From the NCBI RefSeq assembly GCF_004297185.1, contig NZ_PGCL01000003.1:372001-436000 (forward strand): 64,000 nt of DNA, in the 5' to 3' direction. The DNA is from Methanofollis fontis. Lineage in GTDB: Archaea; Halobacteriota; Methanomicrobia; Methanomicrobiales; Methanofollaceae. Numbering within the stretch: the first letter of the stretch is position 1; each line of letters begins with the position of its first letter. The position numbers were made by a program, and so were the translations under genes. The notes beneath the pieces are model-generated. The model had not been told where the DNA came from. It searched no databases and saw nothing but the letters and a program-made list of their open reading frames with translations. Below, piece after piece: positions 57,211 through 64,000 of this stretch.

Positions 57211-58074
57211 GTGGTGATGCCGGAAAACGATGATAAAAAGAAACGCTTCAAAATAACCGACAGCACACCAGGTCAGAACGGCGATGACGTCCCGATGGAA
57301 ACGATCACCATCGGTCACCGGGGGACAGAGCCGGCAGCATTTTTTCATTCATTCACATTATGTCAGGGCGGACCCCGAAACCCTGAGATGTATACGCCGG
57401 GGAGAGATCCCTGTGATCCCACCGCCTCTGAACGCCTTTCGATTCTCAGCCTCGTGTCCATGCTACACTCCGAACCAGAGATACGAAATAGAACCCCTAT
57501 CCTCAGGACTGACCAGCTCTCCGGACAGGGATATACCATCCCGGGGCGGATGACCCTTGAACCCGATCCTCCAGGATGGAATTATATTTCAACAACAGGA
57601 CCACAACCCGCACGATCTTTCCGGCCCCGGGTGCCGACAGATCACCGCCTCTTTGTGTCTCAGCCAGACACCAGAAGGATGCAGCGCCGCCGGAGAGCGG
57701 GAGCACCAGAGAATAGGACGGATGGAATAACCGAGGACTATGGTTTTTCGGTGATGAGGTGCCACCACCGGAACAGAACCGATCCAGCACCCACACCGGA
57801 GCGCCCGTACGTTCCACTTCTTTGGTCCATGTACATGAGGGTGCAAATCCAGGCGCAACCAGACAGAATCACGGTCAGAGAGGAGGTGCCGGCGGGTCCG
57901 TTCTCGGAAGTGTATGATGGTGCCGATTGCGACCGGAGGGACGCCGATCCGATTTCGGGACATCGTCGGAATTATTTCGATTTGGTCGATGGAGACAATC
58001 AAACCATCATAAAATCGATCATATCACACCCAGAATCAGTTTTTGTGGCGCCTTCGAGTTTTGCGAGGAGATAG
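57211..58074 (+). CDS. Doubtful 287-codon ORF with coding-like N-terminus
   Basis: From GTG 57211 (or ATG 57217, after GAGGGACAG) the first 45 codons look native: PENDDKKKRFKITDSTPGQN then DDVPMETITIGHRGTEP. Beyond about codon 50, codon use changes sharply (AGA, CGA, TTA, CTA) and composition becomes rich in Pro, Arg and Thr with no fold pattern. The stop lies 1 nt before the cohesin gene start and its last codons supply that gene's SD. It is either an ORFan or a short gene fused by decay to non-coding sequence. Confidence 0.3.
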   Translation: MVMPENDDKKKRFKITDSTPGQNGDDVPMETITIGHRGTEPAAFFHSFTLCQGGPRNPEMYTPGRDPCDPTASERLSILSLVSMLHSEPEIRNRTPILRTDQLSGQGYTIPGRMTLEPDPPGWNYISTTGPQPARSFRPRVPTDHRLFVSQPDTRRMQRRRRAGAPENRTDGITEDYGFSVMRCHHRNRTDPAPTPERPYVPLLWSMYMRVQIQAQPDRITVREEVPAGPFSEVYDGADCDRRDADPISGHRRNYFDLVDGDNQTIIKSIISHPESVFVAPSSFARR

Positions 58075-58075
58075 A

Positions 58076-58801
58076 ATGAGACTGCCAATATCTGTAACAG
58101 GAATTGTTGTGTTATGTATTCTTCTTTCAGGAGCCTGTCAGGCCACGCCAGTCCTGATAACCCAACAATCGACCTTGATCTCAGATGGAGAGGATATCAC
58201 CGCCGCTATCATCCTCAAGGACGCTGAAAACGGCCTTTCTGGATACAATATGTCGCTTTCAGTTATTGATTCCCAGATTGCTCATATCAGAGGGTTTTCT
58301 TACCCGGAATGGGCAGCACTGCATGATAATGGCACACTTCCTGCAGGAGAAACCTGGATAGAAGCCATCGATATCGGAGATACGGCTGAAGGAAATGAGG
58401 GACCGATCAGCCTCGGCAGTGTCATACTTCAGGCCAACACGGCAGGGACGACCACCCTCCGCATTCATTCCCTGAATATTCAGGACAACAGGGGTAACTC
58501 CTATGAGATCGACGGATATGAGGTTGAAATCCATGTGGAGGCTTCCAGCGGGGGAGGAGGCAATGATGAACAGGTCTCAACAGAACCCCCCGCCACATCA
58601 ACACCCGGACCAACCATGAATATCACCGATACCCCCTCTCCTTCAATGACAACCTCACCCCCCCCGACCCCGCAGATTGAGACTGAGGCAGCACCAACCA
58701 TACAGAACGCAGAATCAGGTTTTATTTCCCCTTTTATTTGCCTTCTAACCCTGTTTGCCGGACTTTACATCATTAAACGGAGTGAAAAAAGATGGAAATG
58801 A
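58076..58801 (+). CDS. Membrane-anchored cohesin-like surface protein
   Basis: The protein has 241 residues. A signal peptide (LPISVTGIVVLCILLSGACQA) is followed by one cohesin-like beta-sandwich (about 25-165) with GYNMSLSVID, FSYPEWAAL, TLPAGETWIEAIDIGD and LGSVILQANTAGTTTLRI. A Thr/Pro/Ser linker spans about 170-215. The C-terminal helix FISPFICLLTLFAGLYII ends in a basic tail (KRSEKRWK). This is a cell-surface anchor able to hold dockerin partners. ATG 58076 follows GAGGAG. It overlaps the next gene by 10 nt. Confidence 0.82.
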   Translation: MRLPISVTGIVVLCILLSGACQATPVLITQQSTLISDGEDITAAIILKDAENGLSGYNMSLSVIDSQIAHIRGFSYPEWAALHDNGTLPAGETWIEAIDIGDTAEGNEGPISLGSVILQANTAGTTTLRIHSLNIQDNRGNSYEIDGYEVEIHVEASSGGGGNDEQVSTEPPATSTPGPTMNITDTPSPSMTTSPPPTPQIETEAAPTIQNAESGFISPFICLLTLFAGLYIIKRSEKRWK

Positions 58802-60858
58802 AAACGATGCTGGCTTTCAGCACACTGCTTTTCTGCATCCTTCTGGTGCAGGGGGCGCTGGCTGCAGAGGCCATACCAAATGTGGAGTTCGCCACCATCT
58901 CGATTCTGCCGGCAACGGCGGAAGTTGATGTGAATGAGACCATGGACTATTCATTTGTCATGGACACCGCCATGTGGGGAGTGTCAAGGTATACCATGAC
59001 AGTATCCCTTGAAAACGGGACAGTCGGTGAGATCGTCGGGGTTAACGTCCCGCACTGGGCACAGATCCCGCAGGACGTTATACTTCCTGCCGATGAAGTG
59101 ACGATTCAGACGGTTGATCTGACAGGCGGGTCAGGCTTTGAGAATATTGAACTCTTAACCGTCACCGTCCGCGGTGACGTACCGGGATCGAGCGAGATCA
59201 CCATTGGACCGATCACCGTCGCGGACCGGCGGAGTGACCTCTATGCGATCACGGTTGTCCCCGCAAGCATCAGTGTCATTGCAGAAGAACCGGTTGAGGA
59301 ACTCATCGCCAACTTTACCGCCAGCGTGACCTCCGGAGAGGCGCCGTTGACCGTTGCGTTCAGTGACCTCTCCACCGGAAACCCGACCGGATGGGTATGG
59401 GATTTTGGTATGGAAAATGCCACATCAGAGGAGCAGAACCCGACATATACCTATGAGATGCCCGGCATCTACACAGTCAGCCTGACAGTCACCAATGAGA
59501 TGGGGGACAATAACACCATAGTCAGAGAGGGCTACATCAATGTCAGCGAAGGGGGAGGCATGAGCATCTATGAGACAGCAGTTGCAGACGGGAACTTCAC
59601 AAGCCTTGTCGGTGCGCTCGATCTTACCGGCCTGAACGCCACGCTCCATGAACCCGGCACATACACCGTCTTCGCACCGACGGATGACGCCTTTGCCTCA
59701 CTTCCAGATGATCTCCTCGATGCCCTTCTCAACGATACTGCTGCGCTCACCGATGTGCTCCTCTACCATGTGGCCGGAGAATCGTACATGGCTGAAGACC
59801 TCACCGCAATGGATAAACTCCAGACACTGCTCGGTCCGACGGTAAGCATCACCTGGGATGATGCGAATGCGACGCTGATGGTGAATGACGCAACCGTGAT
59901 CATCGCCGACATGGAGTGCACCAATGGGGTCATCCATGCAGTCGACACCGTGCTGATCCCGCCGGAAGAAGAGGCAGAGGCAGACTTTGAGGCGGACGTC
60001 CTCTCCGGTCCAGCGCCGCTGACCGTCACCTTCACCGACATGAGCACCGTCGAAAATATAACGGCATGGGCGTGGGATTTCGGCGTGGAGAATGCCACAT
60101 CCACAGAACAGAACCCGACATACACCTATGCAATGCCCGGCATCTACACTGTCGGCCTGACGATCAAGGACGCAATGAACGAGACCTATTCTGAGGTGAA
60201 GATCGATTATATCCAGGTCACCGAACCTGCCGCCGGTTCGGCCATATCCTTCACACCGGTCAACGCAACGGTGGGGGGAGGTCAGACGGCTGAATTCACA
60301 ATGATCCTTGATTCTGCGCCCTCAGGTCTTGCAGGATATACACTGAACCTGAGTGTCGTCAATCCTGCCGTTGCGACAATTTCCGGCATCACATTCCCGG
60401 AGTGGGCAGAGATCAATGGAACGTCAGATCTTCCCAATGCAAGCGCCTGGATGAAAACGGTCGATCTCGGAGAGATGGTCGGATCAAATGCAACAGACGT
60501 CGTTCTCGGGACCGTGATCCTCACCGGACTCTCGGCAGGGAACACCACCCTGATAGTCGATGTGGTGGCGATGACAGCAGACGGAGGTGAGGCGGTCACA
60601 CCCAAAACCGGCGAGGCAACAATCGAAGTGACCGCCATTCCACCGTTGCCTGGATACACCAACCCGCCAGCCGATCTGGACGGTGATGGACTCTATGAGG
60701 ACGTCAACGGAAACGGAATGCTGGACTACGACGATGTCGTGGGTTTCTCAAGGAACTTCTTATGGATTGAAGAGAATAACCTGACGGCCTTGTTTGATTT
60801 CAATGCAAACGGTGTTCTGGACTATGACGATGTGGTAACGCTGTACGGAATGATCTAA
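58792..60858 (+). CDS. Scaffold-like surface protein: cohesin, PKD, fasciclin, PKD, cohesin, dockerin
   Basis: The protein has 688 residues with a signal peptide (about 1-25). Domains in order: cohesin-like (30-160), PKD (170-250, WVWDFGMENATSEEQNPTYT), fasciclin (256-392, YTVFAPTDDAFASLPDDLLD), PKD (396-478, AWAWDFGVENATS), cohesin-like (482-615, FPEWAEI), and a C-terminal type I-like dockerin (625-688). The dockerin has two Ca-binding repeats, DLDGDG/VNGNGMLDYDDVV and FDFNANGVLDYDDVV. It is presumably secreted and docked on a cohesin such as the upstream protein. Asn-X-Thr/Ser glycosylation sites are common. It is coupled to the anchor gene. Confidence 0.88.
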   Translation: MEMKTMLAFSTLLFCILLVQGALAAEAIPNVEFATISILPATAEVDVNETMDYSFVMDTAMWGVSRYTMTVSLENGTVGEIVGVNVPHWAQIPQDVILPADEVTIQTVDLTGGSGFENIELLTVTVRGDVPGSSEITIGPITVADRRSDLYAITVVPASISVIAEEPVEELIANFTASVTSGEAPLTVAFSDLSTGNPTGWVWDFGMENATSEEQNPTYTYEMPGIYTVSLTVTNEMGDNNTIVREGYINVSEGGGMSIYETAVADGNFTSLVGALDLTGLNATLHEPGTYTVFAPTDDAFASLPDDLLDALLNDTAALTDVLLYHVAGESYMAEDLTAMDKLQTLLGPTVSITWDDANATLMVNDATVIIADMECTNGVIHAVDTVLIPPEEEAEADFEADVLSGPAPLTVTFTDMSTVENITAWAWDFGVENATSTEQNPTYTYAMPGIYTVGLTIKDAMNETYSEVKIDYIQVTEPAAGSAISFTPVNATVGGGQTAEFTMILDSAPSGLAGYTLNLSVVNPAVATISGITFPEWAEINGTSDLPNASAWMKTVDLGEMVGSNATDVVLGTVILTGLSAGNTTLIVDVVAMTADGGEAVTPKTGEATIEVTAIPPLPGYTNPPADLDGDGLYEDVNGNGMLDYDDVVGFSRNFLWIEENNLTALFDFNANGVLDYDDVVTLYGMI

Positions 60859-60890
60859 AACCAAATAATCGGAAAACGGGGGGGAAAGAA

Positions 60891-61979
60891 GTGGAACAGG
60901 AGTGGACGTGGAGAGTAAACGGAGAGGATGAGATATATTACAACACCAGGACCGGGGTCATGCAGAAGCAACGGCCCGCGTTCATCGATGACAATGAGAT
61001 CTGGGCACCGCCAGACCACAATCCCCTCGCACCCCTCCGCCTTTATCTCGATCCCACCTAACGCTGTAACCTTGCCTGCCGTCATTGCATCACCCGTTCC
61101 TCTCCCGTAGCAGAGAAAAACAGGGAAGTTGGCATGGAGCACCTCCGAAGCCTCATTCGATCGTGTTGCCGTGCCGGCGTCCTGGAAGTGGCTATAACTG
61201 GTGGAGAGCCCTTAATTTATCCGGAGATTTTCTCTTTGATGGATCAAATCCGAAACTGCCGGATGAATGTGATGATCTCCACCAATGGCATGCTGGTCAC
61301 TCATGAAATCGCACAAAAGCTGGCGGCACTGGGCGTGATGGAGACCAGAGTCAGTTTCGAAGGATGCCGGGAGGTGAATGACGGTATCAGGGGAAACGGC
61401 ACATATGACCGGGCACTCAGGGCCATAGAACACCTGGTTGATACAGGAAACCGCACTGTCTGCCGCCTGACACTCTCCCGGAGAAGTGAAGAGAGCCTGG
61501 ATCATCTATTTGCAGACCTGCAATCACGGAATGCCAGAATTGTGAAGGTTTCAGTTATAAAAAATAGCGGAAGAGCATCTGATCCTGAAAATGCGGATTT
61601 GCATGGACCTAAAGGAGATCTGGCATGTGCGAAGCGACTCATAGAAATGGGGCAACGTTTCGGAATCGAGGTGCAGCTCTCATCCGATGATTTCCCGGTA
61701 TCGGCAGAAGAGGCAAAAGATGGAAAATTAGGGATTTCAGGGGTCCAGAACTGCGGGGCAGGAACAGCAACAGCATATGTGTCACCCTATGGAGAGGTTC
61801 TGCCCTGTTCATCAATACCACAGATTGTATTTGGGAATATCCGAAACGACTCATTTATGAGAATATGGACCGGTTCTACAGCAATGTGGTTCAGAAAGAT
61901 GGCGGCAAGCTCCAATGAACGACTGATCTGTCAGGCACCCTGTTTCCGGCATGTTGCCGAACAAATATGTCATTTGTGA
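60891..61979 (+). pseudogene. Radical SAM/SPASM protein interrupted by in-frame TAA
   Basis: From GTG 60891 the frame runs 362 codons with one internal stop, TAA at 61059-61061 (codon 57). Before it: LRLYLDPT. After it: RCNLACRHC, the CxxxCxxC motif that binds the SAM 4Fe-4S cluster. No frameshift is involved. Later parts are intact: AITGGEPL, MISTNGML and a Cys-rich SPASM-like end (NCGAG, LPCSS, ICQAPCFRH, ICHL). The first downstream ATG (61134) omits the cluster cysteines, so no truncated product could be a radical SAM enzyme. The parent codon was probably Tyr. It lies 32 bp after the dockerin gene, with a G-rich SD. Confidence 0.85.
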
Positions 61980-62057
61980 GAAAAATAACCAATTTTTAAA
62001 ACCTGTTCCATAAAATAACAATTTTCCATATTGATGTTGCATCAAAAAGGGAAAGGA

Positions 62058-62065
62058 TATAAGTA
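62058..62065 (+). promoter_or_regulatory. Candidate TATA box of the sensor kinase
   Basis: GATATAAG lies in the 154-bp gap after the radical SAM gene, about 72 bp before the kinase ATG. This would give a leader of about 45 nt. The gap has no other feature. Confidence 0.35.
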
Positions 62066-62133
62066 ATTCCCTGATAATTTACAGTGATAAATCCCTTCCC
62101 ACAGGAAGCGGGCAGGAGAACAGGGTCGGAACA

Positions 62134-64000
62134 ATGCTGGATATAAAGGCTTTTTTTTCGCGTTTACTGAAGGATCGACCCCTCACCGAACACCTCATGA
62201 TCTCGGTGATCATACTGATCGTGCTCATAATTGCCTCGCTTTCCGCCTTCTCCTATTATGAAGCACAGTCCGGGCTTGAAGAGCGTGAACGCCTGCTCCA
62301 GATAGAGACCGAACAGAGCATCATCCAGTGGATGACCCTTGTCGATGAGGGCCTGAAGATGTATGATGACACCCTCGATTTAAGGATGAAAGACAGTTTT
62401 GAGGGTTTTCTCGAGGCATACCAGGATTCGGGGGGCGATCCCTCCAGGATGAATCTGGAGGATCTCAAAACCGGGCTTGACAATACAATGGACCTCTATA
62501 TCATCAATTCAAGCGGCGTGATCGAATACAGCACTGTTGCTGAAGAAATCGGCGTTGATTTTTCTCAGATCCCGGAATTTTATCAATATCTCACCTCTAT
62601 CAGGGAGAGCGACAATTTTTCAGCGGACCGGGTGGTGCGGGAGAGCTCTACGGGTGCAATCAGGAAATTTGCCTATATGCCAACGCCAGACCACAGGTAT
62701 ATCCTCGAACTCGGACTGGTGCCGGATCTCCTGAAAGACCGGAAACTCGGACTCTCCTATGTGGATGCCGCCGAAGATCTCAAAAAAATAAACCGGAACC
62801 TGCAATCCATTCGAATTTATGATATATTTGGCAAAACTGTCGGCAACAAGAGTCATGTCCCAACCCCCCTCCAGCAAGAACGGATCAAAGCGGCGATACA
62901 GGAGCGCACAGGGAACCAGTCCTATGATCCGGCGAACAAAACCGCGACTGACTATATCTTTATCGATCTCTTCGATCCTGACTATCCTTCTGATATGAGT
63001 CTGGTGATCGAACTCACCTTCACCACCGCCCCCCTTGAAAGAAGTCTGAATTCGATCTTCTTCACCCATCTCCTGATCGCACTCCTCGCTCTCCTGATCA
63101 GCATGATCCTCGCATTTTCCCTGATTCGATATATATCAAAACCGATTTCCCGTATGGTTGCCGACGTCGATCAGATCGCCCATGGTGACCTGGATCACCG
63201 GATCCAGCATACCCGGGGTGTTGAACTCACCAGACTGGAGGAGAGCATCAACGCCATGGTTGGCACCCTGAAATCAAGCCTTACACGGGCACAGGAATCA
63301 GAAGAGGCCCTGAAACAGACGAATGAGAACCTTGAAAAAATTGTTGAAAAACGAACCGCAGATCTCCAGAATGCAAATGCAGAGGCAAACCTCTATCTTG
63401 ACATCATATCCCACGACATCAACAATGTGAATACCATCGGGCTTGGATATGTCCACATATTAAGACGGCGCCTCTCAGGTGGAGATAGGGAGTATGCCGA
63501 AAAAATCACCAGAACCATTCACAGAAGCAGTGGAATCATCCATAATGTCGCAACCATCAGGATGATACACCAGAAACGCCTCCCCCTCCAACCAGTGGAC
63601 CTGGACCGGGTAATCAGAGATGAGATCGCCCATAATCCCGAGGCCAGGATCCATTTTTCGGGTTGCGAAGGTCTGAAGGTCTATGCGGATTCGCTCCTCT
63701 CAGAAGTCTTTTCGAACCTGATCTCAAACTCACTGAAGTTTATGGAGAAGGATGGCGATATCACGATTCGCGTCTCCGATGAGGACAGGGAGATCATGGT
63801 TTCGGTGGAGGATACAGGACCGGGCATTCCCGATGAACTCAAGGAGGTCATCTTCAACCGCTTCAAGAGGGGGAGCGAACGGCAGACAGGAAAGGGCCTT
63901 GGCCTCTATATCGTCAGATCGCTGGTGGAGAATTACGGTGGAAGGGTCTGGGCAGATGACCGGATACCCGGACAACAAACTGCCGGTGCGGCGATCCGAT
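62134..64000 (+). CDS. Sensor histidine kinase with extracytoplasmic sensor and HAMP (partial)
   Basis: The frame is open from ATG 62134 to the window edge (622 codons, no stop). Helix 1 is about residues 18-40. An external sensor domain of double-Cache type is about 41-305. Helix 2 is about 309-334 (HLLIALLALLISMILAFSLI), followed by HAMP (335-385) and a coiled coil (EALKQTNENLEKIVEKRTAD). The phosphoacceptor His is near 427 in YLDIISHDINNVNT. The ATPase boxes are NLISNSLKF, EDTGPGIPDE and GKGLGLYIV. Only the last few residues are missing. It has no adjacent regulator inside the window. Confidence 0.93.
   Translation, partial: MLDIKAFFSRLLKDRPLTEHLMISVIILIVLIIASLSAFSYYEAQSGLEERERLLQIETEQSIIQWMTLVDEGLKMYDDTLDLRMKDSFEGFLEAYQDSGGDPSRMNLEDLKTGLDNTMDLYIINSSGVIEYSTVAEEIGVDFSQIPEFYQYLTSIRESDNFSADRVVRESSTGAIRKFAYMPTPDHRYILELGLVPDLLKDRKLGLSYVDAAEDLKKINRNLQSIRIYDIFGKTVGNKSHVPTPLQQERIKAAIQERTGNQSYDPANKTATDYIFIDLFDPDYPSDMSLVIELTFTTAPLERSLNSIFFTHLLIALLALLISMILAFSLIRYISKPISRMVADVDQIAHGDLDHRIQHTRGVELTRLEESINAMVGTLKSSLTRAQESEEALKQTNENLEKIVEKRTADLQNANAEANLYLDIISHDINNVNTIGLGYVHILRRRLSGGDREYAEKITRTIHRSSGIIHNVATIRMIHQKRLPLQPVDLDRVIRDEIAHNPEARIHFSGCEGLKVYADSLLSEVFSNLISNSLKFMEKDGDITIRVSDEDREIMVSVEDTGPGIPDELKEVIFNRFKRGSERQTGKGLGLYIVRSLVENYGGRVWADDRIPGQQTAGAAIR

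Follow-up and report, generated by a model that had tools for sequence, protein, structure and literature searches.

A premature TAA in a radical SAM/SPASM gene of Methanofollis fontis probably marks a recent nonsense pseudogene

In the 64,000-nucleotide stretch of the Methanofollis fontis genome that we analysed (the window, on contig C3), the reading frame of a radical SAM/SPASM gene is interrupted by one TAA codon, and what remains is very probably a recently inactivated nonsense pseudogene of a lineage-specific accessory gene. The host assembly comprises 2.36 Mb in 22 contigs and is 98.5% complete. Translation of the open reading frames on the + strand gave one protein of 362 residues from 60891 to 61979, save for the TAA at 61059-61061. 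This bears out the original prediction that the frame is intact on either side of a single stop, and both a Radical_SAM and a SPASM domain were matched within it. The features of the gene are as follows.

60891..61061, + strand: 5' part of the interrupted gene, with a GTG start, 56 codons and the premature TAA, aligned with the starts of five orthologues
61059..61061, + strand: premature TAA at codon 57, Tyr (TAT or TAC) in the orthologues
61062..61979, + strand: remaining radical SAM/SPASM frame, 305 codons and a TGA stop, with no further stop or frameshift
61065..61088, + strand: C-N-L-A-C-R-H-C, with the three predicted cysteines of the SAM-binding [4Fe-4S] cluster, 3' of the TAA
61134..61136, + strand: first in-frame ATG past the TAA; a product restarted there would miss all three cluster cysteines
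61752..61934, + strand: SPASM domain match, residues 288-348
61911..61913, + strand: Ser341 (TCC), second candidate lesion, Cys in 27 of 27 aligned homologues

Both Pfam matches were well above their cut-offs, Radical_SAM (PF04055) with an E-value of 1.7e-22 and 80.8 bits against a cut-off of 29.5, and SPASM (PF13186) with an E-value of 7e-11 and 42.6 bits against 21.5. The CxxxCxxC cysteines of the Radical_SAM domain (C59, C63 and C66) all lie 3' of the TAA, which sits two codons ahead of them, and inspection of the sequence between the TAA and the motif found no ATG, GTG or TTG. With the stop at codon 57 and the first in-frame ATG 3' of the motif, CxxxCxxC is not inside a translatable protein. 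Translation from the GTG at 60891 would halt after 56 residues, ahead of the cysteines, and a restart at 61134 would give a barrel that lacks those of the SAM cluster; given that no downstream start restores the motif, no radical SAM enzyme is expected. We infer that the stop is a true mutation and that the gene yields no protein. A structural model of the read-through protein had a mean pLDDT of 62.8; the barrel core was visible, but confidence near the motif and across SPASM was too low for Cys341 to be assessed.

A search of 150 related genomes identified orthologues in four other Methanofollis genomes (G001, G003, G005 and G006, 55-57% identity) and a fifth, at 45% identity, in the metagenome-assembled genome (MAG) G114 from another family of the same order; all remaining matches were at 37% identity or less. 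The resemblance is beyond chance, since the 305 codons after the TAA align to the genus orthologues at about 57-60% identity. The original prediction had called for an alignment with homologues from related genomes, and this returned DPT-Tyr-RCN in all five orthologues, with the Tyr encoded by TAT or TAC, so one substitution suffices for TAA. Set against these intact copies, four of them at the same locus, the disabling change is TAA versus Tyr, and the proposed event would be a single substitution of the Tyr57 codon (TAC or TAT). None of the orthologues (n = 5) carries a stop at codon 57. The residue there varies in more distant homologues, which have Asn, Ala, Asp, Ser, His and Pro among others. 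A scan of genome contigs recovered just two of the known orthologues, those of the MAGs G001 and G114, along with one distant match from a myxobacterium, and a scan of viral contigs found no mobile relatives. A paralogue acting as substitute was also considered and rejected, as the host genome holds no other match at E <= 1e-8.

The original prediction described the SPASM-like cysteines as well kept, and here the comparison gave a different result. When the window copy was aligned with 27 homologues (28 sequences in all), two changes at otherwise invariant columns proved unique to it, L80V and C341S; among the other copies only one (L014) differs at a cysteine (C351D). In this subfamily Cys341 opens the C-x5-C-x3-C segment of SPASM, and position 338 is not Cys anywhere in the subfamily, so that one SPASM cysteine was already missing and the full set for an auxiliary cluster is absent from the window copy on two counts, of which only the Ser at 341 is its own. 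As judged from sequence, C341S is suggestive of a second lesion and falls short of proof, since the subfamily already lacks the 338 cysteine and the window copy retains C288, C306, C347 and C351; the change may be tolerated.

The gene lies between two neighbours that mark a conserved site.

58792..60858, + strand: upstream surface protein with PKD, fasciclin and PKD domains and a dockerin/EF-hand-like tail, the conserved neighbour
62134..64000, + strand: downstream HAMP/HATPase sensor kinase, the other flank of the conserved site, running past the window end

The order of dockerin-like surface-protein gene, radical SAM gene and HAMP/HATPase histidine kinase is the same in G001, G003, G005 and G006 as in the window. 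The radical SAM gene occurs in 5 of 12 genus genomes and is therefore a dispensable accessory gene; no close orthologue was found in G002, G004 or G007-G011, though the kinase is present there. In G008, G009 and G011 the dockerin-like and kinase matches are only about 270 bases apart, a short empty spacer, while additional dockerin-like sequences stand between the two flanking genes in G002 and G004, and in G010 the two flanks are on separate contigs. At the six dockerin-kinase loci tested for a remnant of the gene we found nothing convincing, only short matches with E >= 0.36, and its absence from most other species of the genus may reflect either loss or never having had it.

The original prediction placed the gene behind a cohesin/dockerin pair and tied it to the neighbouring surface protein. 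The pair did not hold up, for no cohesin was matched, Dockerin_1 stayed below its cut-off (E 0.024) and the tail gave EF-hand-like matches. The tie to the surface protein gains some support from the gene order, which is identical in each of the four sister genomes with an intact copy; no substrate was found. The dockerin-tailed protein itself (60244-60855; loci L048-L058) is 57-58% identical in genomes with the radical SAM gene and 40-49% identical in those without it, a pattern that could reflect co-inheritance of the pair or coupling of enzyme and substrate; ThrRS and the kinase show a slight opposite trend. In the window only a short spacer separates the dockerin-like gene from the radical SAM gene. 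In G001, G005 and G006 (L049, L050 and L052) it is long and well conserved, with about 160-170 bases after the dockerin-like stop that apparently keep no constant coding frame.

To place the break in time, relative rates were taken from Tajima-type counts of unique changes with L014 as outgroup. Window copy and genus orthologue had accumulated equal numbers (35 and 34 for L010, and 32 and 34, 36 and 33, and 39 and 35 for the others), which argues against a long spell of relaxed selection and, together with the lack of any further stop or frameshift, for a recent break; any relaxation of constraint since then would be too young to register. A random substitution past the TAA (305 codons) has a chance of about 3.6% of creating another stop, and the absence of a further disabling change in these 915 bases bounds neutral divergence since the TAA at about 0.09 per site or less, or at about 0.02-0.04 per site if indels make up 5-10% of substitutions; dS against the orthologues, which are 55-57% identical, is saturated. 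Identity to the genus orthologues is 43% in the N-terminal part and about 57-60% in the remainder. On this evidence the gene would have been under purifying selection until recently and would now be in the course of being lost.

Codon use gave a picture at odds with the native usage that had been claimed for the frame. The genome was sampled in stretches that total about 0.4 Mb. Relative to 283 long ORFs sampled from the genome, with a median GC3 of 0.76, the gene has a GC3 of 0.52 as a whole (3rd percentile) and of 0.49 after the TAA (2nd percentile), and a codon-adaptation measure fell at the same percentiles. GC3 is 0.65-0.78 in the genus orthologues. It is low in some neighbours too (0.60 in the kinase, 0.47 in the upstream gene at 58070-58798), so the low value is partly regional. 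The window from about 58000 to 63999 is poorer in G+C altogether, with gene GC of 0.49-0.55 against a median of 0.62 and GC3 low as well. In a hexamer scan of coding potential over about 0.47 Mb the gene scored poorly as native coding sequence. The same scan was tried as a means of finding other interrupted genes and was dropped as unspecific (194 candidates), since the high G+C of the genome lets shadow frames score as coding too.

A recent stop, readthrough and a sequence error had been left standing side by side by the original prediction, and of these a recent stop is now the best supported and the other two less likely, given the Tyr in the orthologues, the lack of a suppressor tRNA, the second lesion at a cysteine and the absence of the gene from most of the genus. 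Counting against a pseudogene, the intact remaining frame and the equal rates would be expected just as much from an error or from leaky readthrough. An error of assembly or base calling, or a base taken from a minority strain where strains were assembled together, with the gene in fact intact, would fit a lone substitution in an otherwise perfect frame whose relative rate is that of intact orthologues, and a 22-contig draft lends itself to it; but we regard it as unlikely, since the genome looks clean otherwise (0 of 100 other domains with a stop), the same gene has independently changed at a cysteine that is otherwise invariant, and a true null mutation is plausible for a gene so patchily distributed across the genus. 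It is quite improbable that a real TAA is read through to some extent by near-cognate suppression, with a little full-length enzyme still made and perhaps a role in down-regulation. Such leakage is consistent with the intact frame and the unaccelerated rate, and prokaryotic genes are reported to carry in-frame stops widely, often while constraint persists, though most such stops do not last long (PMC7918605). Against it stand the SPASM cysteine that has changed as well, the lack of the stop in any orthologue, and the tRNA complement, in which no suppressor with a UUA anticodon was found among 43 tRNAs, a set that also missed tRNA-Tyr and tRNA-Trp and that an intron-bearing tRNA could escape. 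The stop redefinitions reviewed for archaea are likewise of UAG and UGA only (PMC8211752), and the original prediction was correct that pyrrolysine is not encoded by UAA.

If the TAA were genuine and usefully decoded as Tyr or another residue, the gene would encode a UAA-gated archaeal radical SAM enzyme and represent a type of stop-codon redefinition so far undescribed for archaea; we hold this to be highly improbable. Use of UAA as a sense codon genome-wide was considered and rejected, for among 101 domains of the host genome (31 radical SAM, 43 ABC and 27 HATPase) only this one contains an internal stop, and the other 100 domains of the three families have none. Finally, it is extremely unlikely that the N-terminal product of 56 residues functions by itself as a short protein: orthologues share part of the module (W5, R8, G11, Y16, Y17 and G22), which has two strands in the predicted model, but it lacks a Pfam match, is fused to the enzyme in every orthologue and is less well conserved (43% identity) than the remainder (57-59%). 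Across L010-L014 this module (60903-60980 in the window) spans 30-45 residues with conserved W5, R8, G11, YY16-17, G22 and P29. A WW domain was entertained for it and rejected, the likeness being by eye only and without a Pfam match.

The interrupted gene is most likely a case of ordinary recent gene loss and not of a new reading of the genetic code. Like the genes with a single in-frame stop described before (PMC7918605), it has one stop, a constrained frame and occurrence in one genome, and there is no material difference beyond orthologues that are here just 55-57% identical, with dS saturated. As a broken gene it has little wider importance; in annotation, a single pseudogene should be recorded for the frame instead of two genes.

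The intact enzyme of the other Methanofollis species is uncharacterised, and its relatives give some indication of what it may do. The best NCBIfam matches to the protein were MftC, the mycofactocin maturase (TIGR03962), and proteins of the AhbC/AhbD/NirJ/PqqE group, which likewise have a radical SAM core followed by SPASM. Unlike these, it is without one SPASM cysteine, and it is far under every listed cut-off (133.6 bits against 265 for MftC). Among solved structures the RiPP maturases SkfB and SuiB ranked at the top, SkfB by sequence profile (E 1.1e-21) and both by fold, though with just about 14-16% identity over the fold alignment; BlsE, MoaA, anSME and PqqE ranked lower. No precursor peptide was identified beside the gene. 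The resemblance to SkfB, SuiB, PqqE and the mycofactocin maturase, together with the surface-protein neighbour, fits an intact enzyme that would modify a peptide or a surface component, and the enzyme could plausibly act at the cell surface. In part of Methanofollis the radical SAM/SPASM enzyme and the dockerin-like surface protein form a conserved but dispensable pair, which indicates where the enzyme's substrate might be sought.

Weak similarity was also found to the radical SAM sugar and aminocyclitol enzymes BlsE (a cytosylglucuronate decarboxylase) and BtrN. The G114 copy (Euryarchaeota MAG BL5_bin.5; L046, 540-9065) offers a parallel, as it stands near genes that read as nucleotide-sugar genes, named from their translations and not from a domain scan: a nucleotidyltransferase, epimerase/dehydratase, aminotransferase and glycosyltransferase-like run, which is divergent from the radical SAM gene and does not form one operon with it.
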